DNA of 35,963 nt, from contig JASMFB010000006.1 in assembly GCA_030751995.1 (NCBI GenBank), positions 1 through 35,963 of the forward strand. Direction: 5' to 3'. Shown piece by piece: positions 3,915 to 28,212 of the stretch; position 1 is the first letter of the stretch, and each line of letters opens with the position of its first letter. Made by a program: the position numbers and the translations under genes. This DNA comes from Candidatus Thalassarchaeaceae archaeon (GTDB lineage: Archaea; Thermoplasmatota; Poseidoniia; Poseidoniales; Thalassarchaeaceae). The notes under the pieces were generated by a model, which saw nothing but the letters and a program-made list of their open reading frames with translations, had not been told where the DNA came from and ran no database searches.

Positions 3915-4036
3915 TCTTGTAGTTTAATGAAATTTGATATTTGAGTGAATTTTACATGCATAAAATCGGTTCAATAACCACTAAATCAACGAAAATACAG
4001 CATTTTTCAGTTGGCGAATCAATTTCACTGGTCAAA

Positions 4037-4054
4037 CGGCCCCCATAGGGGCCG
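4037..4054. repeat. Short perfect hairpin, CC-CATA-GG core
   Basis: CGGCCCC-CATA-GGGGCCG: 7-bp arms and a 4-base centre, 36 bases before the chosen start of the roadblock-like gene (15 bases before the alternative TTG at 4070). One of seven similar elements. The rest of the 3830-4090 gap is AT-rich and holds no convincing gene. Confidence 0.7.
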
Positions 4055-4090
4055 GCATGGGGCAAGTTCTTGAAGTCGCATTCGACCTCG

Positions 4091-4414
4091 ATGGCTTCCG
4101 AGGACCCCATGTTAACTCGTCTGCTCACAAATCTCGACGACATCGAAGCCTGCCTACTCTCTGGAGAAGGGCATGTGATGGGTGGCGAAGGAAAAGGAAA
4201 CGTTGCTCTTTACCATCAGGCCATGCGGATGGCAACAACGCTCCAGATCGGTCGCGTTGAAGAGATGTGGTTTGAAGGTGAGTCGACAATGGTCGCAACC
4301 ACAATTCGAGGTGGGGCAAGCCTCTGGTTGACGAGTGATGTATTGCCCATTGGTCGATTGAGCCACGAGGCTCGGACAATACGACCTGTTATAGAAGATT
4401 TAATCGAGGTGTGA
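4091..4414 (+). CDS. Small roadblock/LC7-like protein
   Basis: A 107-residue cytosolic protein with no signal or membrane segment. The pattern of a first helix (LTRLLTNLDDIEACLL), a strand-rich middle (MWFEGESTMVATTIRGGASLWL) and a last helix (SHEARTIRPVIEDLI) matches the roadblock/LC7 fold. That fold, as in MglB, dimerises and serves as a scaffold or GTPase partner. This is fold-pattern recognition by eye, not a proven match. The ATG at 4091 is chosen; an ATG at 4109 and a TTG at 4070 are in frame and possible. The stop is two bases before the next start, whose ribosome-binding site lies inside this gene's last codons. It is therefore co-translated with the large coiled-coil protein, which has a similar domain. 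Confidence 0.6.
   Translation: MASEDPMLTRLLTNLDDIEACLLSGEGHVMGGEGKGNVALYHQAMRMATTLQIGRVEEMWFEGESTMVATTIRGGASLWLTSDVLPIGRLSHEARTIRPVIEDLIEV
4406..4411 (+). promoter_or_regulatory. Ribosome-binding site deciding the start at 4417
   Basis: GAGGTG with a 5-base spacer to the ATG at 4417. The ORF track begins at GTG 4411, but that codon starts on the last base of the ribosome-binding site, so ATG 4417 is the likelier start. Confidence 0.75.
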
Positions 4415-4416
4415 AA

Positions 4417-7400
4417 ATGTTCAATCTACCCCCTGGAAATGCTGTTGATTCTGAAGCCGATTTGAGTGTTGGACAAAATCAGATGCCCTTTGAAACCGGG
4501 GCAATCTCCCACTACAAGCCAAGGGCAAAAACGGCATGTGCTCATCGATTGATTCACGGTGGTCGTGTTGTTGGTTGGTTAGCCGAATCAGAAGCCAAGC
4601 AAACATTTGTCTCCGGGGAAGCTGCAAAAGATCGTCTGTTGGAATTGTCTGATTCACACGATCTCAATGCGCGAGGAGCCGTTTGGACCGTTGCGCAATT
4701 CACTGAGGTGGCCCGACGAATTCCAGAGGCATTTTCCGATCCGTCTGATGTAGCTTCCTTGCTTGCCCAAGGTGCAGCCGCACTGCCCATTGAAACCACT
4801 GATCTTGCATTGCTCGTCGATCGGTTGACAGAATCCGAGGAAGTCATCGGTGCCCTGGCCTTTGAAGAGGGCGTTGTGATCCACTCAAGCGGAGAACTGC
4901 CTTCAACTCCAGACGATCTTGCTACACTGGGTCAAGAACACCTAAGTGGGATATCATCAAAATTCTCTCAAGAAGAATCTCTCTCTGCCAATCTCCGATT
5001 GGAAGGTGGACAATTGATGCTAACTGAAGCAGGTCAAGCATCTGTTGCCATTTGGTGCCGACATGGTGCTGATGCGCACGCGGCACTCTCCAATGCCGCA
5101 AGTTTGGTTGGTTCAATGGATGAAGGAGAGATGGTTGACAACGATGAACTCCCTGAAGGGTTCATCACAAAGGAGACAAAATCTGGAATTGACCAACTCA
5201 TTTCTCATCTTAGAATGGCATACGAAGACCGACTCACCGGTTATCTACAATCAATGTCCGAATCGGCGGAGCCCATCTCAATCATGCTCGTGGATGGAGT
5301 TCCAACCGGATTACGGGAATCGGACGGTGCATCACTCCCGGATGCGGTTCATACTATGACCACGTCCTCACGCCGCCTCCAATCACATCGACTTGAGAGG
5401 AGAGCACGACTTGGCCTATCTGGCTCCACAGTAGAGGAATTCTCACTGGCCCATCTTACCGATGCCATCGCTGGATGTAGGACACGTTCTGATGATCGGA
5501 AGAGATTGGTGACTGGAAGACTGGATGCGCTCTTCGGATTTGATTTGGGCCTAGAGTCTATGGAATCTGGACGCTCGACATGGAAGATGCTCGAAAGTGT
5601 CGGAGGCACGGCCACATTGATGCCAGTCTCCAGTACAAAGGTACTCACTCCAGCTGGAGGAGAAATCAAAAAGCGGCTTGAGCAATTGGAACACACGCAG
5701 ATTTCCTTAGAACGAGAGAAGGGGCGCCTTGAGCGGGAAGTTGCAGATGCACGTGCATCCAGAGATGAATCTAGAGACATGATGCATGATCTTGAAGCCG
5801 CACTGGGTGAAGCACGGGATGGAAGAAGTACACTTCACAGAGAAGTTGACGATTTGTCAGCCAAGGTTCGTAGTGCAGAGGCAGAAACTGATGAGGCGAC
5901 CTCGCTATCTACTCGTCTATCAAAGCGTGTTTCTGAGTTAGAACACATGGTAGGGAAACGTGCAGAAGAATTGGCCAGTGCATTGGGCGAATTTGAATCA
6001 CGCGAAGCGCTCCTCACAGACCTACGCGAACTGTCTACGGAAGAAGCTACGACTAAATCTGAACTCAGTGCTGCTGAAACGCGTCTGGATGAAGTACGAA
6101 AATCACTGGACCATGACGAGCGGCTACAGCGGGTCCTCACAGAACAAGTCAATGCGCAGCGTGATCGTCATCGGACCGGTCAGGGCGAATTAGACGAAGT
6201 TGAGCGGAGAATAGAGAGTCAACGTGCTGAACTTGTTGAACTAGAGGCTGAAGCACATGCGCATCGCCGACTGATGGAAGAGGAGCGCGGACGAATCCTC
6301 GATTCTGAACGAAAATCAACCATCATGCAATCTGAATTGCGTGAAATGATGGAAGAACGCCGACTATTGCTCCGTGAACTCGGAGATCTCGATGCACGCA
6401 AGGCACAATCAGAAACTGAATTGAGAATGCTGCTTGAACAAGCAGAGGATATCCAAGAAGCGCACGAGATGGCATTGATTGATTTGCAAGAGGCAGACCG
6501 AATTCGTGCACGTTTGGCGGAAGAGCCGTTAGCACAGGCTCTGCTTGGTGATGAACGCGGCCTCTCTAGTTTGGAACCCGTGCTTGATCGCATGGCAAAT
6601 GCACGAAGTCGGGGTTACAGCATCGTCCTACTAGACCGGGCTGTTGAACGGGCATTATCTATCATTCAACATAGTGTAGATGAGGTAGCAAAAACGCCAC
6701 GGCATCTCCTATCACTCGAAGTCATGGATCTTCTGGAAAGGCAAGCACCCGAAACCGCGTCAACGGTTCGAGGCTTGACAAGATGGTCTGTGCAATCCCG
6801 TCTTGAGCATCAACTTGCAGAAACCGTTCAACACGTTGTCATTGATCTTGAAGGGTTGCTGGAGGAGTATGAGCGGTCAGTCACAATGCTTGCGCAACTA
6901 CAGGATGTGTTGCGCGGCCTAGTCGATTTGGGCTTGCCCGCTGAAGATGTCAAACCCCTGGAGCGCTTCAGCCACATGCCAGAAGCTCTGCCATACATTT
7001 CGGTTGAAGTTCGACGTCTGATTCAGCGCTCGCTGGACGATATCTATCTCGATGCGGATCGGAGAACGGCTGGAGATGCTGTTGGATTGGCCGAAACCGT
7101 GGAGGTGTTGGAATCTCTACTTCGCAGACTCGATGTGGCTGGCTTGAGTGGGGAAGATCCTACTGGGGCCCTTTGGGCATTCCAACGAAGCGGTAGTTTA
7201 CCTTTCGAAATCGACGGATTGGCCCGTCATGAGCGACCCGAAATCAACAATGAAGCTGTTCGGCACATGAATCCTGTCGACGATGTGGCTGTAGTCACTT
7301 CTACGGCCACTGATTCACCACCGGTTGTCGCCCCGAGTGCCCCCGCTGCAGCACCAACACCCGAGGCGACCGCTGCACCTGCATCCAATTCAACTTGGCA

Positions 7401-7656
7401 ACCAATTGAGGAGGCGGCTGAGACAGATGGGGTCGATATTTCAACCCGAATTTCAGCGGGCCTAACACCCGCTGATGTACCGGGTGATGCTGATGAAGCT
7501 TCATTGATGGCTAATATCGATGTTGCACTTTCTGAGATTGATTCAGCCGCAGATGTTCGTGAAGGAACCGAAAATGGAGTTCCACCTCCCGCTGATCCAG
7601 TTCAACGAGATGCGATGGATGACTTAGAGCGAGAACTATCTGACCTCGATATATGA
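4417..7656 (+). CDS. Large roadblock-like and coiled-coil protein
   Basis: An unrecognised 1079-residue cytosolic protein. Residues about 130-230 (from LALLVDRLTESEEVIGAL) look like a second roadblock/LC7 domain. Residues about 415-700 form a long charged coiled coil rich in Glu/Arg/Leu heptads. A helical globular region follows (about 700-950), then a Pro/Ala-rich linker from about residue 961 and an acidic tail ending ERELSDLDI. There is no Walker A motif, so despite the shape it is not an SMC or Rad50 ATPase. It is tightly coupled to the small roadblock-like gene before it and the two-helix membrane protein after it. The set suggests a scaffold that could pair roadblock domains and be tethered at the membrane, for example in polarity, division or cell shape. 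This role is inference; no function is known to me. Confidence 0.75.
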   Translation: MFNLPPGNAVDSEADLSVGQNQMPFETGAISHYKPRAKTACAHRLIHGGRVVGWLAESEAKQTFVSGEAAKDRLLELSDSHDLNARGAVWTVAQFTEVARRIPEAFSDPSDVASLLAQGAAALPIETTDLALLVDRLTESEEVIGALAFEEGVVIHSSGELPSTPDDLATLGQEHLSGISSKFSQEESLSANLRLEGGQLMLTEAGQASVAIWCRHGADAHAALSNAASLVGSMDEGEMVDNDELPEGFITKETKSGIDQLISHLRMAYEDRLTGYLQSMSESAEPISIMLVDGVPTGLRESDGASLPDAVHTMTTSSRRLQSHRLERRARLGLSGSTVEEFSLAHLTDAIAGCRTRSDDRKRLVTGRLDALFGFDLGLESMESGRSTWKMLESVGGTATLMPVSSTKVLTPAGGEIKKRLEQLEHTQISLEREKGRLEREVADARASRDESRDMMHDLEAALGEARDGRSTLHREVDDLSAKVRSAEAETDEATSLSTRLSKRVSELEHMVGKRAEELASALGEFESREALLTDLRELSTEEATTKSELSAAETRLDEVRKSLDHDERLQRVLTEQVNAQRDRHRTGQGELDEVERRIESQRAELVELEAEAHAHRRLMEEERGRILDSERKSTIMQSELREMMEERRLLLRELGDLDARKAQSETELRMLLEQAEDIQEAHEMALIDLQEADRIRARLAEEPLAQALLGDERGLSSLEPVLDRMANARSRGYSIVLLDRAVERALSIIQHSVDEVAKTPRHLLSLEVMDLLERQAPETASTVRGLTRWSVQSRLEHQLAETVQHVVIDLEGLLEEYERSVTMLAQLQDVLRGLVDLGLPAEDVKPLERFSHMPEALPYISVEVRRLIQRSLDDIYLDADRRTAGDAVGLAETVEVLESLLRRLDVAGLSGEDPTGALWAFQRSGSLPFEIDGLARHERPEINNEAVRHMNPVDDVAVVTSTATDSPPVVAPSAPAAAPTPEATAAPASNSTWQPIEEAAETDGVDISTRISAGLTPADVPGDADEASLMANIDVALSEIDSAADVREGTENGVPPPADPVQRDAMDDLERELSDLDI

Positions 7657-7665
7657 GGTGGAAAA

Positions 7666-7965
7666 ATGAGCAAGGAAGGCGACATTGCCGTTGAACTTCT
7701 TGAAGTAACGACCGAACACAATAATCCAGGCCTCCTTGGGAGGGAAGAAGATCATGGACGATATTATCCAGCGTTCTATGAGAGGATAGTGTTGTTGTTT
7801 TGCATCATTGGGGCCTCGTGGGTAGGGTATTGGATGTGGACAGAAACGAATTGGTCAGCCTTGGCATTGTGGCCAGCAACCGTATGTGCGTTGCCTCTGG
7901 CCACCTTGGTTGTCGCCGAGATATTGGGAAAAATAATCCAGCGAATCCATGTCACGAGTGAATGA
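7666..7965 (+). CDS. Small two-helix membrane protein
   Basis: A 99-residue protein with a hydrophilic, acidic N-terminal half (about 38 residues) followed by two transmembrane helices (IVLLFCIIGASWVGYW and ALALWPATVCALPLATLVVAEI) and a short basic tail. Both ends are probably cytoplasmic. The start is firm: TGAGGTG at 7654-7660, which includes the previous gene's stop, with a 5-base spacer to the ATG. This coupling makes it the likely third member of the roadblock/coiled-coil unit, possibly its membrane tether. I recognise no family. Its stop abuts the stop of the convergent membrane protein gene with no spacer. Confidence 0.75.
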   Translation: MSKEGDIAVELLEVTTEHNNPGLLGREEDHGRYYPAFYERIVLLFCIIGASWVGYWMWTETNWSALALWPATVCALPLATLVVAEILGKIIQRIHVTSE

Positions 7966-9213
7966 TTATGGATTCGTGTTTCCTCTCTTTCGGATAGTAG
8001 ATTCGATGAGACCCGAGACTCTCTGCCAAGGAACAATGTAACGCAGTCCAGCAACAAACGTAAGGAATAACATGGCTGATATCACCTTTCCATAGGTGAG
8101 CCTCAATTCAAGTGATTCTCGAACTTGGCCGCTCCATTGACCCGAACCAGCCCACCCCACAATATCGATAATCAAATCATCGAACTTGAGTGCGAGCATG
8201 GTGACGAATCCAACAGCGAGGATGACGACGACCGTGTGCTGCATGTGGGTGTTCAAAATGCTCTGGAATTGACGCACGTATTCCGGGTCCTTCTTGCATG
8301 ATTCAGGTAATCGGAATGCATACTCGAGGAATCGTATTGTCGCTTGAGCGGTTTCGGAATATACCATCAAGAGTATGGCGACCAACAACAACTCCCAGAC
8401 ATCACCTGAAATCAATCCACCCAATGTATCCGCTTCGCCGATTTGGGTAGGGAGTGGATTGAGTCCCGGAGCATGGGGATCTGAGGCGCTAGACAGTTGA
8501 CTGACAACCCCTTCGTAAGAGAGTAGAGCGTACAAACCGAGGAAGATGAGCATGTACGCCATCGACCAATTAATCATCCGCTTTGAGAGGCCCCAAATGC
8601 CCATCAAACCAAACAGCACTGGGGCCAAGAACAACAACATGACGAGAATCTGGATGTATACCGATAACGGCCATACCAAATGATTGGCATGATTCATCGA
8701 ATCATCGGCGTGACCGAATGGCAAATATAAATCGAAATTGATAATCATTCCAAATGTCCAAGTCAGGAAGAACATGCCTGCAAGGAAGAGAATCATGCCA
8801 CCTAGAAGGCCGAGTGTAATCTTTCGTCTTCGAGCAGGAGGTTGGAAATTGAGAGCGACCCATGCGCCCGCTATGGCCATGGTCAGCAGAATGGGGACGA
8901 AGAATCTGCCATCACCCTCGTTGCCTTGGCCAGTCATCCAATCGGGGAGAGGTAATTCATCGAATCCTCCGCCATCAGCGAAGCCCGCTTCAATCTGGTC
9001 AAGGGTCAGTGTGTGATCCAATGCAGGGCACCATGAGCCATTTGCGACATAATCGGGATGGCAGTGTCCAAACACCCTGGTCATGGTCAAGAATAGCCAG
9101 ATGAGGGCTAAACTGGCCACAAGTTGGAGGCATACAACGCGCCACTCTTTGCGCAATATTCGTAGATGGAGGGAAGTTATCCCTTCCTCTTGCTGTGCAA
9201 CATCATCGGCCAT
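7966..9213 (-). CDS. Polytopic membrane protein, last gene of the DUF58 cluster
   Basis: A 415-residue integral membrane protein with about eight hydrophobic helices. The first spans about residues 28-48, followed by an extracytoplasmic loop of about 55 residues with two cysteines (FGHCHPDY and WCPALDH) that could form a disulfide. Other loops are Asp/Gly-rich. The C-terminus is basic. The ATG at 9213 has a GGGGGTGA ribosome-binding site, 12 bases after the DUF58 gene's stop, so it belongs to that operon. I do not recognise the family. By position it may be the membrane partner of the DUF58 and DUF4350-like proteins. It is convergent with the 99-residue protein gene and has no spacer for a terminator. 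Confidence 0.75.
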   Translation of the reverse strand: MADDVAQQEEGITSLHLRILRKEWRVVCLQLVASLALIWLFLTMTRVFGHCHPDYVANGSWCPALDHTLTLDQIEAGFADGGGFDELPLPDWMTGQGNEGDGRFFVPILLTMAIAGAWVALNFQPPARRRKITLGLLGGMILFLAGMFFLTWTFGMIINFDLYLPFGHADDSMNHANHLVWPLSVYIQILVMLLFLAPVLFGLMGIWGLSKRMINWSMAYMLIFLGLYALLSYEGVVSQLSSASDPHAPGLNPLPTQIGEADTLGGLISGDVWELLLVAILLMVYSETAQATIRFLEYAFRLPESCKKDPEYVRQFQSILNTHMQHTVVVILAVGFVTMLALKFDDLIIDIVGWAGSGQWSGQVRESLELRLTYGKVISAMLFLTFVAGLRYIVPWQRVSGLIESTIRKRGNTNP

Positions 9214-9225
9214 ACATTCACCCCC

Positions 9226-10476
9226 TTACACCTTCACCTGCAACAGTGCCTGACTCAATTCAACATCCGGCATCCAATCTATGACGCGGGCGCCATAACC
9301 TGCAACCGCAGACAATCTATTCTGACGTTCAAGTTTCATCACTTCGTACGACATTCTCGGGATTCGACTCACAAGCCGCTCGTAATCGATGCTGGATGGA
9401 CTGAGAATGACCACTTCGTGGCCACGGCCAGCCAAATCTCTAATCGCGTGTGGAACTGTACCATCGCCCTCGAGGCTTGAAATGACGAAGACGGGGCTGC
9501 CACGACTGAAGCGTGGTGCTAGTGAATTGGTGACAGCTTGAAGCGGCATATCGCCCTTTGGAGCGACACCAGCAAGGCTAGACAGGACCTTGAAATATTG
9601 CTTGTCACCGCCGTCAGCAGGCAAGTAAGACAGCGTGTCATCATACACTGCTAGAGCAACTGAATCACGCCTCTTGATGAAGTACGAGGCTAGGCTTGCA
9701 GCGGCGACCGTGCCCATTTCAAGTGGATTTTTCAATACGGTCCCAATTCGACTGATGTCTCTTGAATCGAGGAGGATGAATACGTCCGTAACAGCGTCTC
9801 GACATTTTTCATTGACCATCATAACTCCTGTTCGAGCAAACGCTTTCCAATTGATAATCTTGAATGGGTCGCCAGGAACATATTCGCGAAGAGAATAGAA
9901 TTCGGAACCGGGACCTGGAGTACGAAGGGTCATCGCACCGGTGTACATCTTGGGGGTTCTGCTTCGAATCATCGCTTCTTCAATCTCACGAACCTGTGGG
10001 AATACGATGAGACCAGAACGGTGGTCGATGTACATCTCTTGACTGTACAGATTGAATGTATTGCGATAGCGAATTGAAACTGGACCAAATGAATAGTGTC
10101 CACGCAGTGGACATCGTAGAACATAACGAATTCGAGTGGTTTCTCCGGGCCCCAGATTGACACGCATGTAGTTGAGTCCGCTGCGGAGTTTCATCTCGTG
10201 TGGGACGTTGTCAAACACCTCAAGTTGTTGTGTTCGACGGAATGAACTGTTGGTGATTGCTAATTCGACATACAGATCATCACCCTTGTACAGATTATCT
10301 GCAGATAACGTTCGTACAACCTCTAGTTCACCATGGCCAACAACCCACGAGTTGATAGCCAGGAATGCGATGAACATGAGACCCAGAATCATCAATTGGA
10401 AATTCGCAATCATCATCCCAATCAAAACCAGCGAAATGCCTGAAGTCATGAACAGTGCTGCCTTTCTTGTCCACAT
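9226..10476 (-). CDS. DUF58 domain protein
   Basis: A 416-residue protein with two N-terminal transmembrane helices (about residues 8-50), a beta-rich extracellular-type domain, then the DUF58 core. The signature stretch LREYVPGDPFKIINWKA with the following ART is the family's best mark, and a von Willebrand A-like fold follows (DVFILLDSRDIS resembles a degenerate metal-ion site). In many bacteria and archaea DUF58 proteins sit with a MoxR AAA+ ATPase, transglutaminase-like and vWA membrane proteins, in envelope stress or polymer-related clusters. Here a DUF4350-like protein is upstream and a polytopic membrane protein downstream, but no MoxR is in the window. The start has a strong GGAGGTGAGGT site 3-6 bases before ATG. 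Confidence 0.88.
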   Translation of the reverse strand: MWTRKAALFMTSGISLVLIGMMIANFQLMILGLMFIAFLAINSWVVGHGELEVVRTLSADNLYKGDDLYVELAITNSSFRRTQQLEVFDNVPHEMKLRSGLNYMRVNLGPGETTRIRYVLRCPLRGHYSFGPVSIRYRNTFNLYSQEMYIDHRSGLIVFPQVREIEEAMIRSRTPKMYTGAMTLRTPGPGSEFYSLREYVPGDPFKIINWKAFARTGVMMVNEKCRDAVTDVFILLDSRDISRIGTVLKNPLEMGTVAAASLASYFIKRRDSVALAVYDDTLSYLPADGGDKQYFKVLSSLAGVAPKGDMPLQAVTNSLAPRFSRGSPVFVISSLEGDGTVPHAIRDLAGRGHEVVILSPSSIDYERLVSRIPRMSYEVMKLERQNRLSAVAGYGARVIDWMPDVELSQALLQVKV

Positions 10477-10492
10477 GTTACCTCACCTCCGC

Positions 10493-12157
10493 TTACTTGC
10501 GCCCCCACATTTTGACCCGTTTGACAACTGCCACGAGTTGCTCAAGGCTGTAATTCCGATCTTCAAAGACGAATTTGATAAGAACGGGGTCGCCAATCAT
10601 CTTCTGTAATTCGCGAGCGGGCAAGGCATCGAATTCATCACGAGTCAAAGAATTGAGATTCCTCACTCTAGAGAGCAAGACTTGTTTGACTTTGTTCGCA
10701 CGACCGTAGTAACCGTATCGTCTAGCATCACCAAATCCGTAGTAAATGATACTGAATACGTGTCGCCATGGTTCTGGATCTACCTTCTTGATAATCACGG
10801 CCTCAAAAGCGACGAAAAGGGCAAGGAAGAGGAAGAGCATGGCCATCCAGTCATTGGTGAAGTAAACTAGAATGTAGTAAATCAGATTGTATGTATCTCC
10901 CATGGCATTGGTTTGTTGGTGTCGACTTTCGTCGAAAATCACCTGCTTGCCCGATGCCGATGTTCCGTTATCATCAGCCGTGTGCATCAACAACGACTCG
11001 GCGATGATGTCGAGAACCCAACGACGGTTGTCATTATTCGGCATCACCTTGCCATTCAACTCACCATATGACCCATCATTGGTTTCTTCCCAATCGTAAA
11101 TTGCATTCATCAGCGCTGAACCATCACTGACGAAGATGGCTCGCCCCATCGGTGCTCCAGGGTCCTCTGCACAATCTCTCTTCTCACAGACCTTGATTGC
11201 CATGGTGAATGGGCCTTGCTCATCACTTTCGATGCCGCCACCCTCGAATCCTACATCTCCTTGGCCATCATCGTTGGTATCCAGATAGGAATCTTGACTT
11301 GAACGACCCCAAGCATAGATGTTATCGGAATTCGATTCCGCAGCATCCTTATCAAAAGCAGATGGCGTATTCAGTAGGACGTTGTAGTTCGTACTGAAGT
11401 TCCAGAATTGACCTCCAGTAGAGTCTGTCTCAATGTGATGGGCACACAGACCTGCATCTGCAACTGTTGGCATATCTGCACCATTGACAGGGCTGTTGGG
11501 CAGAGAATCCAATCGATCGATGATGCCATCGTTATCTGCATCAGAATAACATGGATGTGAACCCGATTTATCGGTCCCTGTATAATCGTAAGGATTTGAG
11601 GAATTCATCCATACGTAGTTGTAATCCAATCCACGAGCCCAAGCTTCTTCATCGTAGAGTTGGTGTCCACTATATCCCAATTCAAATTCTTCTGCAAGAC
11701 CAGTCGAAAAACCAAAATCGTCCATGACTAGTAATGTTCCACCCGAGAATACATACTCTTTGATTGCTTCAATCTCTGTTGTTGTGTAACCTTGTGATTC
11801 ACTGAATTGAATCACGTCCACATCTCCGGTGAAACGAGGTAAGGAAATCGTATCCTGTTCAACACCTGTCACAATGAAGACTGTGTCTTCTGGATTCTCA
11901 ATCTCCCCCAACAGAACCGGGCTAGAAATCATGCTTGTCGTATCGACACCCATCCCCTTGAGGTCGCCACGGAAGGCGGACAGATCATCCCAATCATCAT
12001 CGTAAGCAGACAGGTGAGTGTCACTCTCTACAAGGTAGGATGCGACGATACTGTACAAAAGAAGAGCTAGGACGGCGTAAAACGCAATCATCAAACCTGT
12101 CCTACGTGTTTTTCGGGATTTGAGGACGGTCGCAATGTCAACCGAACCAATCTTCAT
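10493..12157 (-). CDS. DUF4350-like membrane protein with large ectodomain
   Basis: A 554-residue protein with one N-terminal transmembrane helix (about residues 20-42), a large ectodomain, a second helix (about 433-455, WMAMLFLFLALFVAFEAVII) and a basic cytoplasmic tail of about 100 residues. The first part of the ectodomain has the DUF4350/GATase-like pattern (IKEYVFSGGTLLVMDDFG). It also holds a calcium-type DADNDGIIDRLDSLP repeat. DUF4350 proteins usually lie beside DUF58 and MoxR genes, which fits the DUF58 gene 16 bases downstream. ATG 12157 has a GGGAGGTC ribosome-binding site. A hairpin at 12172-12188 ends 14 bases before the start. Substrate and partners are unknown. Confidence 0.75.
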   Translation of the reverse strand: MKIGSVDIATVLKSRKTRRTGLMIAFYAVLALLLYSIVASYLVESDTHLSAYDDDWDDLSAFRGDLKGMGVDTTSMISSPVLLGEIENPEDTVFIVTGVEQDTISLPRFTGDVDVIQFSESQGYTTTEIEAIKEYVFSGGTLLVMDDFGFSTGLAEEFELGYSGHQLYDEEAWARGLDYNYVWMNSSNPYDYTGTDKSGSHPCYSDADNDGIIDRLDSLPNSPVNGADMPTVADAGLCAHHIETDSTGGQFWNFSTNYNVLLNTPSAFDKDAAESNSDNIYAWGRSSQDSYLDTNDDGQGDVGFEGGGIESDEQGPFTMAIKVCEKRDCAEDPGAPMGRAIFVSDGSALMNAIYDWEETNDGSYGELNGKVMPNNDNRRWVLDIIAESLLMHTADDNGTSASGKQVIFDESRHQQTNAMGDTYNLIYYILVYFTNDWMAMLFLFLALFVAFEAVIIKKVDPEPWRHVFSIIYYGFGDARRYGYYGRANKVKQVLLSRVRNLNSLTRDEFDALPARELQKMIGDPVLIKFVFEDRNYSLEQLVAVVKRVKMWGRK

Positions 12158-12171
12158 TTCAACAGACCTCC

Positions 12172-12188
12172 CACATCCATAGGATGTG
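12172..12188. repeat. Short perfect hairpin, CC-ATA-GG core
   Basis: CACATCC-ATA-GGATGTG: 7-bp arms and a 3-base centre, 14 bases upstream of the DUF4350-like start. A weak TATA-like stretch near 12210 (minus) would place the transcript start close to this hairpin, so it may form the mRNA's 5' end; this is inferred. The flanking gap 12189-12263 also has an AAGACC/GGTCTT inverted pair (12216-12221 and 12239-12244). Confidence 0.7.
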
Positions 12189-12263
12189 CAGCCGCGAGAC
12201 GCTGAACTTAGCCTTAAGACCGTTTGGGGGTGGTGGAAGGTCTTGCATCGTGCAAAAACAGCC

Positions 12264-12506
12264 TTATCGAGTCAGATGAATATCCTCATCGATGGAAGCA
12301 ACTTCCTCGGTTGGAACAACCAGATGTTCGCCAAAAGTAGACCACGGGAGCAGTTTGGGATCCAAACCCGCATCGAGTTCTAGAAGTAATCCAAGGACAG
12401 ACCCAGTGACATCATCGATGAACAAATCAACGACTGTTCCCAGAAGGTCGCCCCGACTATCGACAACACGACGACCAGTCAATTCTGTAGAGAAGGCCGC
12501 CGGCAT
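12264..12506 (-). CDS. Single PRC-barrel domain protein
   Basis: An 80-residue protein that is one PRC-barrel and nothing else: STELTGRRVVDSRGDLLGTV followed by VVDLFIDDVTGSVLGLLLEL is the typical beta-barrel start. In haloarchaea, PRC-barrel proteins (CdpB family) act in FtsZ/SepF-based cell division, while others bind photosystem or rRNA-maturation partners; which applies here is unknown. The start is firm: a GAGGTG site at 12512-12517 with a 5-base spacer, overlapping the cdc48 stop. The gene is therefore coupled to cdc48, and a functional link to the unfoldase is reasonable but unproven. Confidence 0.85.
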   Translation of the reverse strand: MPAAFSTELTGRRVVDSRGDLLGTVVDLFIDDVTGSVLGLLLELDAGLDPKLLPWSTFGEHLVVPTEEVASIDEDIHLTR

Positions 12507-12515
12507 TCATTCACC

Positions 12516-14741
12516 TCAAACACTTTCAATTCCCATCAAGGTGTCACTATTACGTCGGATGCTCTCCAATCCACTCGTCAAGAGACTTTCCAACTTAGAA
12601 TAATACGCAAGCATTTCGGGTGTGATTGTCGGGCGGACTCTGCTGACTGCTTCCTCGAAATGCTTCTTTGCGACTGATTTCTTTTCAGCCCTCATGGCGA
12701 TGAGGGCGGCTTCGCGGCAGACCGCCTCTACGTCTGCACCAGTGAAATTCTGCATCTTGTCAGCCAGACTCTCAAGGTCAAACTTTCCTAGAGGCATGTC
12801 CTTGGCATGAATTTTGAGAATTTTTCTAAGACTCGCATGGTCAGGCGGTGGAATGTGCATAACGCGCTCAAACCGGCCACTTCGCAGCAATGCAGGGTCA
12901 ATCATCTCTGGACGGTTCGTCGCAGCAATGACGATGACACCTTCCATGGATTCAACACCATCCATACTGGATAGCAACTGATTGACGACACGATTAGATA
13001 CATCGCTGCCTTCACCGGAATTGGGTGTTCGTGCACCTGCAATCGATTCGAATTCATCTAGGAAAATGATGCTGGGGCTGGCCTGTTTTGCCTTCTTGAA
13101 GACCTCACGGATTGCTTTTTCAGATTCACCAACCCACTTTGAGATCAGTTCTGGGCCTTTGACAGTGATGAAATTCGCTTTCGCTTCATGGGCGATGGCT
13201 TTGGCAATCAAGGTCTTGCCCGTCCCAGGGGCACCAAATAGAACGATTCCGCGAGGCGGTTTGATGCCAAAGTGCTCAAATCTATCAGGCATTGTCAATG
13301 GCCATTCGACGCTCTCCTTGAGGCGTTCCTTGACCTCATCAAGGCCACCAACATCATCCCAAGAGACTTCAGGAATTTCGACATATATTTCGCGCAATGC
13401 GCTCGGTTCGATATCTCTAATTGCAATTCGGAAGTCATTCATTTGGACTTCCATCTTTTCCAAAACTTCAGGTGGAATTTCATCTTGATCTAAATCTATT
13501 TCAGGTAGATAACGTCGAAGAGCCTTCATCGCCGCTTCACGGGTTAGACTCATGATATCTGCGCCCACAAATCCGTATGAATTTTCCAATATCCAGTCCA
13601 TGTCGAAATCATCCGCAATCGGCATGCCTCTTGTGTGGATATTGACGATTTCACGGCGCCCATTCTTATCGGGAACACCAATCTCCAATTCACGGTCGAA
13701 ACGACCTGGTCTTCGAAGGGCTTGATCGATGGCATCGGGTCGATTTGTAGCTCCGATGACAACCACATTGTCACGGCCCTGCATCCCATCCATCAATGTG
13801 AGCAATTGAGCGACGACACGACGTTCAACTTCGCCAGATACGTCTTCGCGCTTCGGTGCGATTGAATCCAACTCATCGACGAAGATGATAGCGGGGGCAT
13901 TTGAAGCAGCATCATCGAAGATTTCACGCAATTGTTTCTCCGATTCACCGTAATACTTCGAGATGATTTCGGGGCCATTGATACTAGTGAAATGCGCATT
14001 GGTTTCATTGGCAACTGCTTTTGCAATCATTGTCTTACCTGTCCCGGGGGGGCCGTGCAGCAAGACGCCCTTGGGGGGGTCGATGCCTAGACGACGGAAG
14101 AGAATAGGATGCTTGAGGGGTAATTCAATCATTTCACGTACCTTCAACAACTGGTCCCCAAGGCCACCGATATCTTCGTACATGATTGAAGAAATCTCTC
14201 CGGGTTCGTCATCTTCGACCATTTCCTCTTTGATGACGATATCAGTATCTGGGAGAACCCGAACAATCCCCTTCGGCTTGGTTGAGACGATTGCGAATGG
14301 AAGTGCTTCAGCAAAGAGAGTCATGCCCGGGATGAAAATGCGGTCACCTGCAACTACTGGTCGCTTGTTGAGGCCGCGGCGAGCGAATCCTTCGATTCCA
14401 GAGCCGAACTTGACCTTCTGTTGCTTGGCCATGACCGGACTCAGAACGAGTCTCTCGCATTCTTTGGTTTCGACCTTCTTGATAGAAACACGGTCCCCAA
14501 GGCTGACGCCTGCATTCTTGCGGATGATGCCATCAATCCGAATGACGCCAAGGTTGGCATCCTCTGGGCGGCATCTCCAGACGATTGCGGCAGTATTCCT
14601 TTCGCCACTAATTTCGATGACGTCGCCCGGTTTTAGGCCTAGATCATTGTCAAAAGGTACGCGAGCCCGTCCGTGACCTACGTCACTAGGAATCGCTTTT
14701 GCCACGCGCAAGGAGAGTGTTTTTTCTTCATCGTCAGCCAT
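12516..14741 (-). CDS. cdc48: Cdc48/VAT-type double AAA+ ATPase
   Basis: A hexameric unfoldase that threads proteins through its pore, usually feeding the proteasome. At 741 residues it has the standard archaeal layout: an N-domain (double-psi barrel plus four-stranded barrel, residues 1 to about 190), D1 with Walker A GPPGTGKT near 228 and Walker [10 protein letters not shown], and D2 with Walker A GAPGTGKT near 501 and Walker [10 protein letters not shown]. Arginine-finger regions (RRPGRFDRE and LRSGRFERV) are present. The second Walker A has Ala where GPPGTGKT is commoner, still compatible with ATP binding. The C-terminus ends MGIESV, with no hydrophobic-Tyr-X proteasome-docking tail visible. 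There is no ribosome-binding site before ATG 14741, so the transcript may be leaderless. A PRC-barrel gene is coupled downstream. Confidence 0.96.
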
Positions 14742-23082: not shown

Positions 23083-26000
23083 TTATTCTTCCTCGTTAAT
23101 GATATCAAGAATCTCCGCATCGGTGCTCTGTTTTACATTCTCTGTACGGTGGATATCAATCTGTTCTTGAGTCCAACCAGCAGCAAGCAATTGTTCATCA
23201 CTCCATGCTTCCGTTTCCCGAGTTTGTAATCCAGCCATTTCAGTGAGGATATCGTCTGAGATATCTTCATCTCTCTTGGCCCAGACATCGTCAGGCAATT
23301 CATCGTCTTCCTCAATGGGCATATCTTCCCGACGGCCAATCAGTATCGATGTGAGTGCGATTAGCAATAGGAGAGCAACAGAAATTCCAATAATCGTGAT
23401 TGTCGATGATGGGTTGTCCACACCTTGCTGAGTGGTGTTTTCTTCATTCGAAGTATCCGATGGAGCCTCGCGCGCGCGTAGGAGAACTGATTCTGATACA
23501 GAGAGTGATGTCTGATCGAGGCAAGCGAAGTAGAGTGTGTGATTTGCTTCTGAGCGACCGGGTGGAATCCACGATTGAGACCACAAACCATCTGCATCGG
23601 GACGATAAATCTCTGAAAACAATGTTATCTCATCTTCATCTTTCAACAAAATCGAGCATTCCATGTTCTCCATTCCATCGACATCAGATATTTCGACAAT
23701 CAATGTTGTCTCATTTCCGGAAATCAATTCAGTGGGCATGGCTGAGAAATCCAATTCTGGCTCAGAACCTCTCAATTCAAAACTCAATGTTTCTGAAAGC
23801 CCGGTTATTCCATCGATGTCTCTGAGATTCACGACCAATTCTACAGTTCCCAATGACCAAGTCAAGAGATATTCCGAATTGAGATTCATTCGATAATATT
23901 GGGTGTGTTGTCCAGTTCCAGGGGCACAGGGTGCAGGTGGAACCCCCTGTTCAAAGAAAATTGAACTAAATACACTAGATGTAGGGCCAGCAGGACCCAA
24001 GCGAATACCTGCGTACTGTATGGGGCGGCCTCCTGTAATTCCCACCCAAATATCCGTACCTTCAGCACCCCGATTTATTGTGTCAACCAACATGTCATTC
24101 ACACAAAGTTTGGGTGTTGAGATGGTTGGAGGTTTTAGGAAAACTGGGCGGGTCCAAGTCCACTGCATTTCAGCCCAAATGCCGTCGGTAATTTGTGTCG
24201 TAATGGTAGCATCTCCAGATTCTAGTCCTGGTGGTGCGGTGGCCAAATCGCCTTCAAGTGATTGAATTCCGGCACCAGGCCATTCAATGATTGTCGATAT
24301 GGGATAATCGATATCTGGGTCATCTTCGTCGATGATGCGGACCTCAACAAAATCATCTGCACCATCAAGATACGACTGATCTGAGATAAAGAATTCAGCA
24401 CTTGGGGCGAGGTCAATGGGCGTCAGGCTGCGATTCGCCCATTCGGTTCCATCTGCATGAAGACTGATTGCAACAGGGTCTAGCGAACCACCTGCTTCTG
24501 GATTCCAAGAAGTCTGGTAACAGGTTTGACTGCCGCTGGTGCTGGATACAGAAGGGGTTGGCAATTCATCCCCATCGACTCGGATAGATGGGGCCTCAGT
24601 CTCGTTGTTGTGGTCCAAATCAATCACACATGCAGTCATCGCGTGTTCCCTTCCACGAACCCACCCTGATGTACCATGAATGGGGGGATCTATACCAAGC
24701 CAAGGCGCCAAGTCAGCCCCTTCGACATGAACACCATACCATGTTGCACTCGCATCTGTGATATTGAATGCGGCATCCCAAAAAGACTCATCCTGTAACT
24801 CCTGTGCATCCTGAACAACCCAATAGATATCCACACTGTCGAGTGGGGCATCAGTGGGAAGGGAGATTGCTGCGGTCCAAATCACTCCATCATTCTGTGA
24901 AGTGGCAGTGATGGGGATGTATGTCGGATTGCTAGAATTGTTGTAACGCCAAGACAAGGTTGCTCCAGCGATACCGAAATCATCTGTGACTGTGATTCGG
25001 CAAATCACGACTCCTCCACGTGTTGCCGTCGTCGTTGAACATGTCAATTCATCAATGATTGGCGGTGAGTTGATTTCGATGTTCAACAACGCAAGATTGT
25101 TGTCAACAACGCGTTCAGGATGTGCGTCTCCTGGAATCCAACGAACTAGGAATTCGACAAACCCAGTTCGAACCGGAGTGACGTTGATGGGTAATATGAG
25201 ACGACTCCCTGCATCATTACCCCCTGGAATGGTCATCGAATGATTGGCCAAGAGAAGATTGTTCTGTCGATCCCTCACTTCAAGGAAGCCGGTAGCTATG
25301 CCAGGGGCGAGGTTCTCCAAGAGTACCTCTAGCGTTCCGTTTTCCCCAATGGACAAACGTTCGGAGGTGCGGACTTCGGAGACGTTGACATCGTGCAGAC
25401 GATCGCCGTATGCAGCCATCTTTGGGTCTCCAACCACGGTACCCATCCAAGAGAGGAGAACGTTTGATGCCGCATAACATTCGACCATCGTGTAGCCATC
25501 TGCATAACACGAGAACAATTGTTCTGGATTCGAAATTGCAGAGAGATAGGGTTCGTAGACATATCCTTTGACACCGGAGACGCCGTCATCGAGCAAATCG
25601 GCAACTAAACTCTGACCATAGCTCGAGTTGAGCACGAATGTGCGGCCACCTGTACTCACGGCTGTCTCTGCAATACTGCCATCTAACCAAGTGAAGTGAG
25701 GTCGAATTGGATATAGTTTCAGCGTATCAAAGAAAATAGAGCCATTGTATGTTCCATCGGTGAATTCGGCAACATGTCGAACGGCGAAACTTGTTGCAGC
25801 CGCATCGGGACGGAATCGGAGTTGACGGTTCTGCCAATCATCAGAGAAAGAGTGATCATCGGATCTGTTCAGAGATAAGGAATTGCCATTCGCATCGAAT
25901 GCTTCAACTTCTAGCCACCAATCGCCTTCAACCCAGCCCTCTCTCATTGAATATCCATCAAGAACCCAAGCATGTCCTTCTAGGTCCGTATCGATGTCAA

Positions 26001-28212
26001 AGACTTGTTCAACATAGGCAATGGAGTTGTTCGTTGTATTGAATGTAGGGCAAATCCAGACGATTTCATCGTGGACATCTGCAACCTCGTCCTCGGACAA
26101 GGCAGCATCCCAGATTTGGACCTCATCGATGACACCTGTGAAATGTGTGCTACCCGCACGATTGACACCGAATTTGTAGATTTCAATACTGTTCACAGTA
26201 CCATTTGGGACGGTTTGATTGAGAATCTCCACGCCATTCAGATAGAGTGTGACTGTGTCGTTGAGGAAGGTGGCCACGAGATGTTGCCAAACCGTTGGAT
26301 CAACCGTTCCGAAATTGTATGAGGTGTTGTGATACAATTCCCAGTCTCCCGGGCTGCCACCTCCAGTCATTATTTGGAAAGACTCGTCGTCTCCAGCAAC
26401 ATCATTCACGGCAATCGCTGAAGAATATCGGGGTTGGCCACTGTGATTAGCTTGAACCCAGAGACTGACGGTGAAATCAGTCACGGTGTCTGCAACGTCG
26501 ACTCGGGCTTCATCATCAACACCATCAAAGAAAGCGCAGTTACCCAAGACACAAGTTCGCCATTGGTTGCCATTGGTCCCAGTGAAATTGAGGTGGGCGG
26601 TACCCACAGAATCGTTGGCGACATCGCCACTGTTCTCATTGAATTCCCAATGGTGAATGAGATCAACTTCCCGAACGGGGTGACTGCTTCCACGTGTCAA
26701 AACATTGGTTGGGACAGTTTGTTTGGACAAGCCAGGACCTTCCCATTTGAGTTCCAATCCAGCATATCCACCATGCTCAAAGAATTCGGTACGTAGTTCG
26801 TGTTCTCCAGCATCTAGCCACGCCGTACCTGAACGCTCTTGCATGGCATGGTGTCCCTGATTGTCGACGATTTCAACATCATCAATCCACAATTTAGAGC
26901 CATCATCACTTCGCAAGTAAAACGTCCAATTACCAGCGGTAGGAATGTGAATAATGCCTGTGTGTCTCGCACTCCAATAATCGAGGAATCTACTGTCTAG
27001 ACCAGCCCAAGCATTTTGGGTAGATGGCCAATCTAGATTCGGTTCGTGGCGAACAAAGTCTGGAGTTCTTCCAGAGAGGTTTACCATTGTGCTGGAGTTG
27101 TAGGTGATTCCATTGTTATCGAAATATTCAGCGAGCAGTCCATTGGTTGTCGCTGCATCATTGGCTCCACATGGCGCATCCTCAAGACGTCCTTCCATCG
27201 CTGCATTTCCATTTCGTTTTGTCTCGGTCTGACGGGCCCACCACCATTGTTCACCTGGTGAAAGCGCTGGGCCAACTCCGTCCCAATATCGGGCACCAGT
27301 CGGCCAACTGCCATCGGATGTGTCATATCCAGAATTGGACAATTCATTGTCATCCCAAGAACCATCATTGCTGCCCCAGGCGGAATACATCGAGAGATTC
27401 TCCATGTTGGTGACATAGGTTCCATTCTGATTGAAGTGAACGGGGAAACCCATGTTCGTCAGCGTTTCATTCGTGGTGTAGAGTAAGTCATTCCACCACT
27501 TGTACCCAGATCCATTTCGATTCGTTGCCAAGTCGAGAACAGTTAGTCCGTGCTCCCCCAAGCTGTTGTTGGTCTTGGCAATCAAACCCAAGGCTGCCTC
27601 AACATCATACCCAGTTAACCGAGTGACCAAGTAGTACCCTTGTTCGTCTCTCTGGAATTCTTTCATCTCATTACCGGCAGCAGGCCCGTAGTTTGACTCG
27701 ACATACCAATCCGCGAAGATAGCCGAGGCATAGGGTCCGTCGATTAGGGCCAATTCTGAATCAAGGGAAGCACGGGAATTGGTTCCTCCGTTGACTCGAA
27801 GCGGAACTCCCTTCGTAGTGACGAGAACATTGAGTTCGGTCAGATTTCGCTCAGATATCATCTGTGAGATTGGATTTGCGAAGTATGTAGTGAATTGATT
27901 GGAATCGATGGTTTCACCTGTAGGTGTGCTCTCATTGGTCAATAGCAAGACACGTTCTGGAGGAATATTACGGGCCAGAGCAAAGGCAGTACCGATGGTT
28001 CGACTCACCTCGCTTTGATTGTTGATGATGATGGCGACATCACTGTAATCGGCGAAGGTCTGATGAGAAAACGGTTCCAGTACTGCCACATCCCTGAACG
28101 GGGCCTCCTCCCACGCGTCCGCGTGGGCCCTCGCTTCCTCTGGAAGCGATACTGCGGCCCAACTCTGCAGTGAGAGCAGAAGGACGAGAGTGATGGCTAA
28201 GCGAGAGCGCAC
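23083..28212 (-). CDS. Giant anchored surface protein: TIGR03790-like, PA14, LamG
   Basis: A 1709-residue exported protein. Order: signal peptide (1 to about 20); a TIGR03790-like domain (about 50-350, with VAIIINNQSEVSRTIG and ARNIPPERVL); a PA14 domain (about 357-490, NGLLAEYFDN to LELKWEGPG with FYLRSDDGSKLWIDD); a LamG/concanavalin-like domain (about 520-710, HHWEFNENSG to VIDEVQIWD); a CARDB-like beta domain (about 940-1050); further beta domains; one transmembrane helix (about 1602-1625); and an 85-residue acidic cytoplasmic tail with WSDEQLLAAGWTQEQID. PA14 and LamG domains commonly bind sugars, so polymer or cell attachment is likely. Many Asn-X-Ser/Thr sites suggest glycosylation. 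Start: GTG 28212 with GGTGA six bases upstream. No enzyme active site is recognised. Confidence 0.85.
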   Translation of the reverse strand: MRSRLAITLVLLLSLQSWAAVSLPEEARAHADAWEEAPFRDVAVLEPFSHQTFADYSDVAIIINNQSEVSRTIGTAFALARNIPPERVLLLTNESTPTGETIDSNQFTTYFANPISQMISERNLTELNVLVTTKGVPLRVNGGTNSRASLDSELALIDGPYASAIFADWYVESNYGPAAGNEMKEFQRDEQGYYLVTRLTGYDVEAALGLIAKTNNSLGEHGLTVLDLATNRNGSGYKWWNDLLYTTNETLTNMGFPVHFNQNGTYVTNMENLSMYSAWGSNDGSWDDNELSNSGYDTSDGSWPTGARYWDGVGPALSPGEQWWWARQTETKRNGNAAMEGRLEDAPCGANDAATTNGLLAEYFDNNGITYNSSTMVNLSGRTPDFVRHEPNLDWPSTQNAWAGLDSRFLDYWSARHTGIIHIPTAGNWTFYLRSDDGSKLWIDDVEIVDNQGHHAMQERSGTAWLDAGEHELRTEFFEHGGYAGLELKWEGPGLSKQTVPTNVLTRGSSHPVREVDLIHHWEFNENSGDVANDSVGTAHLNFTGTNGNQWRTCVLGNCAFFDGVDDEARVDVADTVTDFTVSLWVQANHSGQPRYSSAIAVNDVAGDDESFQIMTGGGSPGDWELYHNTSYNFGTVDPTVWQHLVATFLNDTVTLYLNGVEILNQTVPNGTVNSIEIYKFGVNRAGSTHFTGVIDEVQIWDAALSEDEVADVHDEIVWICPTFNTTNNSIAYVEQVFDIDTDLEGHAWVLDGYSMREGWVEGDWWLEVEAFDANGNSLSLNRSDDHSFSDDWQNRQLRFRPDAAATSFAVRHVAEFTDGTYNGSIFFDTLKLYPIRPHFTWLDGSIAETAVSTGGRTFVLNSSYGQSLVADLLDDGVSGVKGYVYEPYLSAISNPEQLFSCYADGYTMVECYAASNVLLSWMGTVVGDPKMAAYGDRLHDVNVSEVRTSERLSIGENGTLEVLLENLAPGIATGFLEVRDRQNNLLLANHSMTIPGGNDAGSRLILPINVTPVRTGFVEFLVRWIPGDAHPERVVDNNLALLNIEINSPPIIDELTCSTTTATRGGVVICRITVTDDFGIAGATLSWRYNNSSNPTYIPITATSQNDGVIWTAAISLPTDAPLDSVDIYWVVQDAQELQDESFWDAAFNITDASATWYGVHVEGADLAPWLGIDPPIHGTSGWVRGREHAMTACVIDLDHNNETEAPSIRVDGDELPTPSVSSTSGSQTCYQTSWNPEAGGSLDPVAISLHADGTEWANRSLTPIDLAPSAEFFISDQSYLDGADDFVEVRIIDEDDPDIDYPISTIIEWPGAGIQSLEGDLATAPPGLESGDATITTQITDGIWAEMQWTWTRPVFLKPPTISTPKLCVNDMLVDTINRGAEGTDIWVGITGGRPIQYAGIRLGPAGPTSSVFSSIFFEQGVPPAPCAPGTGQHTQYYRMNLNSEYLLTWSLGTVELVVNLRDIDGITGLSETLSFELRGSEPELDFSAMPTELISGNETTLIVEISDVDGMENMECSILLKDEDEITLFSEIYRPDADGLWSQSWIPPGRSEANHTLYFACLDQTSLSVSESVLLRAREAPSDTSNEENTTQQGVDNPSSTITIIGISVALLLLIALTSILIGRREDMPIEEDDELPDDVWAKRDEDISDDILTEMAGLQTRETEAWSDEQLLAAGWTQEQIDIHRTENVKQSTDAEILDIINEEE

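Follow-up and report, generated by a model that had tools for sequence, protein, structure and literature searches.

What do roadblock proteins do in an archaeon in which no partner GTPase is recognisable? The question is raised by contig JASMFB010000006.1 (35,963 nucleotides in full; the window), which is contig 141 of a genome (GCA_030751995.1; 1.65 Mb, 71% complete) of the family Thalassarchaeaceae, i.e. Marine Group IIb. This family belongs to the order Poseidoniales, whose members are the archaea most abundant in the plankton of the surface ocean (PMC6461757). A sequence-only reading had proposed that positions 4091 to 7965 hold three coupled genes for a small roadblock/LC7-like protein (gene 1), an undescribed giant scaffold protein with a second roadblock-like domain (gene 2) and a small membrane protein (gene 3), and all three open reading frames (ORFs) are present in the window. 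The answer that we favour, with a confidence slightly short of even, is that the products of genes 1 and 2 form a platform of two roadblock proteins, carried by a long coiled coil as scaffold, with a predicted role that involves no small GTPase. This answer builds on both roadblock folds, the coil signal, the strict pairing and the joint loss of genes 1 and 2, and the lack of a detected Ras-, Arf- or MglA-type GTPase. It also draws on the C-terminal domain of gene 2, which is the best conserved part of that protein, and on a further roadblock gene that lies beside coiled-coil genes and tracks the pair.

Genes 1 and 2 encode roadblock proteins

The two genes and the regions of gene 2 are located as follows:

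4109..4414, + strand: gene 1, free-standing roadblock/LC7 protein of 101 aa (orthologue starts, profile, model and Foldseek)
4417..7656, + strand: gene 2, roadblock/coiled-coil protein of 1079 aa
4417..4782, + strand: gene 2 residues 1-122, conserved N-terminal region (alignment A4)
4795..5106, + strand: gene 2 residues 127-230, roadblock domain (profile, model, Foldseek and Pfam)
5146..5652, + strand: gene 2 residues 244-412, alpha/beta region, fold unassigned (alignment A6)
5659..6486, + strand: gene 2 residues ~415-690, long coiled coil (3.5-residue hydrophobic period, SMC/Rad50 coil matches)
6484..7251, + strand: gene 2 residues 690-945, most conserved and probably helical domain (column identity)
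7237..7653, + strand: gene 2 residues 941-1079, Pro/Ala linker, acidic tail and C-terminal LExxLSxLD motif

Based on a comparison of orthologues, gene 1 starts at the ATG at 4109, which is preceded by GAGG at 4100-4103, and not at the ATG at 4091, which is not conserved; the protein therefore has 101 aa. The window copies of genes 1 and 2 are too diverged to match Pfam directly. Among orthologues, the Pfam model Robl_LC7 was matched by 9 of 19 gene 1 proteins at E<=1 (best 9e-8) and by 7 of 20 gene 2 proteins (best 0.0014). When the gene 1 profile was compared with the PDB, roadblock chains ranked first (7f8m at 2.2e-9, 7yh1 and MglC), and the AlphaFold 2 (AF2) model of gene 1, with a predicted local distance difference test (pLDDT) score of 85.5, has the a-bb-a-bbb-a topology of the roadblock fold. 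A Foldseek search with this model returned only roadblock proteins or roadblock complexes among the best 50 PDB matches. Thus, apart from its start, gene 1 is as first read, a member of the roadblock/LC7 superfamily.

The second roadblock domain, in gene 2, was borne out by the same lines of evidence. The profile of this domain matched CvnB5 on top in the PDB (5e-4), followed mostly by other roadblock chains. Residues 127-230 were modelled by AF2 with the a-bb-a-bbb-a topology at moderate confidence (block pLDDT ~45-74), and all 50 Foldseek matches listed for these residues were MP1/p14, Ragulator, MglB, Asgard or other roadblock proteins or complexes. We conclude that residues 127-230 belong to the roadblock/LC7 superfamily and that both proteins adopt the roadblock fold in predicted structures. 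The model of residues 1-412 was made from an alignment of close relatives only, and outside the roadblock domain its confidence is low for that reason. Residues 1-122, modelled with low confidence, have no PDB or Pfam relative, and profile and Pfam searches with residues 244-412 gave no relative either; a PATAN/DUF4388 reading of the latter region came from the sequence pattern only and is not backed by Pfam. By profile comparison, the N-terminal domains of gene 2 are not repeats of one another.

The long coiled coil at about 415-700 (~275 residues) is supported by a 3.5-residue hydrophobic periodicity that is significant relative to shuffled sequences from ~421 to ~700. The best NCBIfam matches of gene 2 are to SMC and Rad50 models (9e-9), as would be expected if gene 2 were an SMC/Rad50-like chromosome protein, a reading to which we now give almost no credence. 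These matches are confined to the coil and reach about 30 bits against cut-offs above 500, gene 2 carries a roadblock domain near one end, and it has no Walker A motif of an ATPase head; assignment to the SMC/Rad50 family was rejected on these grounds. A motif search for the P-loops G-x4-GK[ST] and GxGK[ST] found neither in gene 2, in agreement with the early observation that it lacks an ATPase motif.

The C-terminal domain of gene 2 (residues 690-945) has a mean column identity of 73% versus 48-55% in the three N-terminal regions. It matched no known family and no PDB match was accepted, including a FliS-like one with an E value of 0.027. The predicted Pro/Ala linker and acidic tail are evident from the composition of the last 139 residues (40 P+A, and 29 D/E versus 5 K/R), and an LExxLSxLD-like motif is kept at the extreme C-terminus in both Poseidoniales families. 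We note that the reading frame of gene 2 in the single-contig genome G036 is interrupted within the C-terminal linker (L056, about 6635-6680) and that its tail is read in a different frame, owing to either a natural break or a sequencing error.

Conservation of the pair, its leader and gene 3

Counts of neighbourhoods, leaders and gene orders refer to 21 loci read from both Poseidoniales families, and absences refer mostly to draft genomes and to the sensitivity of family-level models. Genes 1 and 2 (the unit) are adjacent in 21/21 loci, across both families rather than scattered, and they are either both present or both absent in each of 23 genomes. Gene 2 was found in all 23 Poseidoniaceae-side genomes in the search for relatives. 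The profile of its C-terminal domain had matches in 107 of 176 genomes of the class and in 94 of 392 genomes of the phylum, none of the matches listed lying outside the two Poseidoniales families. To judge from this distribution, the unit is old and vertically inherited. Genome G022 has two copies of genes 1 and 2 with equal scores on two contigs (C4 and C8), which are perhaps assembly variants.

In almost all 21 loci, the unit is flanked on one side by a divergent TtuA-type gene, clustered in 20/21 loci, and on the other by a convergent run that starts with genes for a 415-aa membrane protein and a DUF58 protein; DUF4350 is also present where the contig reaches. Seven Thalassarchaeaceae genera have neither gene 2 nor gene 1, and in eight genomes without them the TtuA and 415-aa protein genes are only 0.1-0.4 kb apart. 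In a tree of four flanking proteins, the genera without the unit form one clade (support 0.992) that is sister to a unit-bearing genus, as would be expected if genes 1 and 2 were lost once.

Upstream of the unit lies a conserved leader:

4004..4105, + strand: leader before gene 1, with boxes CAGTTGG and AAGTTCTTGAAG around a hairpin (stem 4037-4043 / 4048-4054)

This leader of ~100 nt, with a conserved box of the CTTCTTGAAG type, is located directly 5' of gene 1. A sequence model built from 17 of the 21 loci detected it before gene 1 in all 21 and nowhere else in 641 kb, which included loci without the pair. RNAalifold found no pairs in the whole leader alignment because the hairpin columns do not align, and the hairpins were therefore folded one by one; z was below -1.5 in 17/21 (mean -2.9; mononucleotide shuffles, each folded singly). 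The stem sequence varies between genera, with pairing kept in most, and no Rfam family was matched. These data suggest a control specific to the unit.

Downstream, the third gene was described correctly as encoding a 99-residue membrane protein with two helices, which correspond to hydrophobic segments at about 41-60 and 64-92:

7666..7965, + strand: gene 3, two-helix membrane protein of 99 aa, a usual neighbour and not an obligate partner

The ribosome-binding sites had been reported to overlap the preceding genes. This holds for gene 2, whose Shine-Dalgarno sequence (GAGGTG, 4405-4410) lies within the end of gene 1, and only marginally for gene 3, whose GAGGTGG (7655-7661) begins within the gene 2 stop codon. 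Together with the position of gene 3 directly after gene 2 in 20/21 loci, this arrangement at the stop codon is what one would expect if the three genes formed an obligate membrane-tethered complex with gene 3 as its anchor. We consider such a complex improbable, however: in one genus (L064) no gene 3 was detected downstream of gene 2, and gene 3 is retained in six to seven of eight genomes that lost genes 1 and 2. In six of these, the closed-up gap holds a gene 3-like ORF that ranked top by the gene 3 profile among 722 ORFs (E 4e-8 to 0.003); a similar, syntenic ORF in the seventh is statistically unsupported (E 0.43). Because gene 3 persists alone, genes 1 and 2 constitute the unit, with gene 3 as a frequent neighbour that does not depend on them. 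Of the proposed coupling of three genes, the deeply conserved link between genes 1 and 2 stands, whereas gene 3 as an obligate third part does not.

Small GTPases, the archaellum and a second roadblock locus

Most characterised roadblock complexes regulate small GTPases (PMC9481161; PMC10933270), and the structural and profile matches of the two proteins include MglB and MglC. The pair might therefore be a regulator of the GAP/GEF type (GTPase-activating protein/guanine nucleotide exchange factor), comparable to MglB for MglA, with a target GTPase or another NTPase that has diverged beyond recognition. Searches for a candidate weigh against this explanation, which we regard as unlikely. An Arf model that scored in 13/14 control genomes had no match in 20 Poseidoniales genomes, one of them single-contig. 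A Ras model gave weak matches in 17/23 genomes, nearly all in long frames, and of the six matching proteins that were scanned, three are aIF5B and three are NOG1. The host's own genome lacks Roc, and no GTPase gene is among the genes identified at either roadblock locus (the second is described below). Beyond NOG1 and aIF5B, there was no Arf, Ras or Roc candidate. MglA, Arf or Ras GTPases of the usual type are undetected in the 20-23 Poseidoniales genomes, including the one-contig genome, and the early suggestion that a GTPase partner is encoded elsewhere is left unsupported because none was found in these relatives.

A role in polarity had also been suggested. Rinke and colleagues report that the archaellum operon is carried by all Poseidoniaceae but by just half of the genera in Thalassarchaeaceae, and that chemotaxis genes are not identifiable (PMC6461757); a function of the archaellum in adhesion has been suggested for the order (PMC6461757). 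Unit and archaellin occur together in every Poseidoniaceae genus tested, consistent with a unit that organises cell polarity or adhesion with the archaellum. Within Thalassarchaeaceae, however, the unit occurs without archaellin in genera g2 and g4, and archaellin without the unit in g5 and g6. With co-occurrence broken in these four genera, an archaellum-associated factor was rejected and such an organising role, already weakened, appears very improbable. Motility-linked polarity is unsupported because the presence of the unit does not follow the archaellum in this family.

A second roadblock locus was read in 12 genomic neighbourhoods, i.e. that of the host itself (G000:C92:7570-7875; L117:7534-7878) and L118-L128. 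In 12/12 loci, this roadblock gene adjoins genes for a long coiled coil and a DUF7121 coiled coil and a conserved purP-like gene (named by eye only), and in 10/12 loci a GNAT gene lies beside it. The second roadblock is present in 16/17 genomes with the unit versus 0/7 without it, and a wide distance separates the two loci in the one-contig genome, where they lie at 0.99 and 1.86 Mb. The joint absence of both loci suggests a functional link, short of proof; it goes no further because it concerns one branch only, and absence here means loss or strong divergence. On a broader reading, which we hold possible but doubtful, Poseidoniales would possess a GTPase-free roadblock-coiled-coil network encoded by two unlinked loci, the unit and the second roadblock with its GNAT, DUF7121 and long coiled-coil neighbours. 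This network would be an internal scaffold in which roadblock dimers would be structural joints and not GTPase regulators, and one clade would have discarded both roadblocks together.

In the two-protein platform itself, gene 2 would dimerise through its coil. Pairing between the gene 1 roadblock and the roadblock domain near the N-terminus of gene 2 would create a docking platform comparable to those of the dynein LC7 dimer or the LAMTOR pairs. At a distance of about 40 nm, the conserved C-terminal domain and the tail peptide may bind some conserved component of the cell, and gene 3 could be a membrane contact or merely a co-transcribed neighbour with its own function. Four points weigh against the platform. 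A diverged GTPase would escape the family models. The interaction of the gene 1 and gene 2 roadblocks and the existence of a target for the C-terminal domain are predictions. In a direct profile comparison the two roadblocks matched each other weakly and therefore share a superfamily without being close copies. Finally, the co-loss of genes 1 and 2 is confined to one clade and hence counts as one event.

Comparison with known roadblock systems

The bacterial polarity proteins MglB and MglC share the roadblock fold with the unit, MglC appearing in the gene 1 profile matches and MglB in the structure matches. Unlike in MglA-MglB, no MglA-like GTPase was found in the Poseidoniales genomes searched, and gene 2 builds its roadblock into a 1079-aa coiled-coil protein. 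The top structural matches of both roadblocks are Ragulator/LAMTOR and p14/MP1, a heteromeric roadblock scaffold at a membrane. Ragulator, however, serves Rag GTPases and is anchored by LAMTOR1, whereas here no Rag-like GTPase or LAMTOR1 counterpart was seen; among possible clients, small GTPases of the Arf, Ras and Roc types were not found, the Rag family model itself not having been run. Dynein LC7, which serves to link the subunits of a larger machine with coiled coils, is among the profile matches of the gene 2 domain, but gene 2 has no motor domain and no dynein partner. CvnB, the source of the best PDB match of that domain, belongs to Streptomyces conservons. Besides CvnB, conservons encode a sensor kinase and a GTPase, neither of which is present at the gene 1/gene 2 locus. 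The Asgard roadblocks (7f8m, 7yh1 and 9jue) are likewise archaeal and include the best profile matches of gene 1; they were studied with Rab/Rag-like GTPases, of which none was found in the Poseidoniales genomes searched. One of them has been proposed as a protein-protein scaffold (PMC10933270).

A survey from 2014 listed 328 MglB homologues uncoupled from MglA, with no orphan MglB characterised experimentally (PMC4316618). No paper describing the unit turned up in the literature that was searched, and the view of gene 2 as an undescribed giant scaffold protein is supported. In Poseidoniales, roadblock proteins occur order-wide without a recognisable partner GTPase in the genomes searched, fixed to a giant scaffold, and were lost as a set in one clade. 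The unit and its natural loss thus offer a comparison for what roadblock dimers do without their usual GTPase partner. The second, unlinked roadblock locus that follows the pair and the unit-specific hairpin leader of gene 1 are new here.

Two further parts of the window are of note. The conserved convergent run at 7966-14741, which encodes the 415-aa membrane protein (without a Pfam family), DUF58 and DUF4350 proteins and a CDC48-type AAA protein, is retained in genomes that lost genes 1 and 2. At 23083-28212, a 1709-aa protein with LamG-like and PA14 domains is encoded, which is probably a surface protein.

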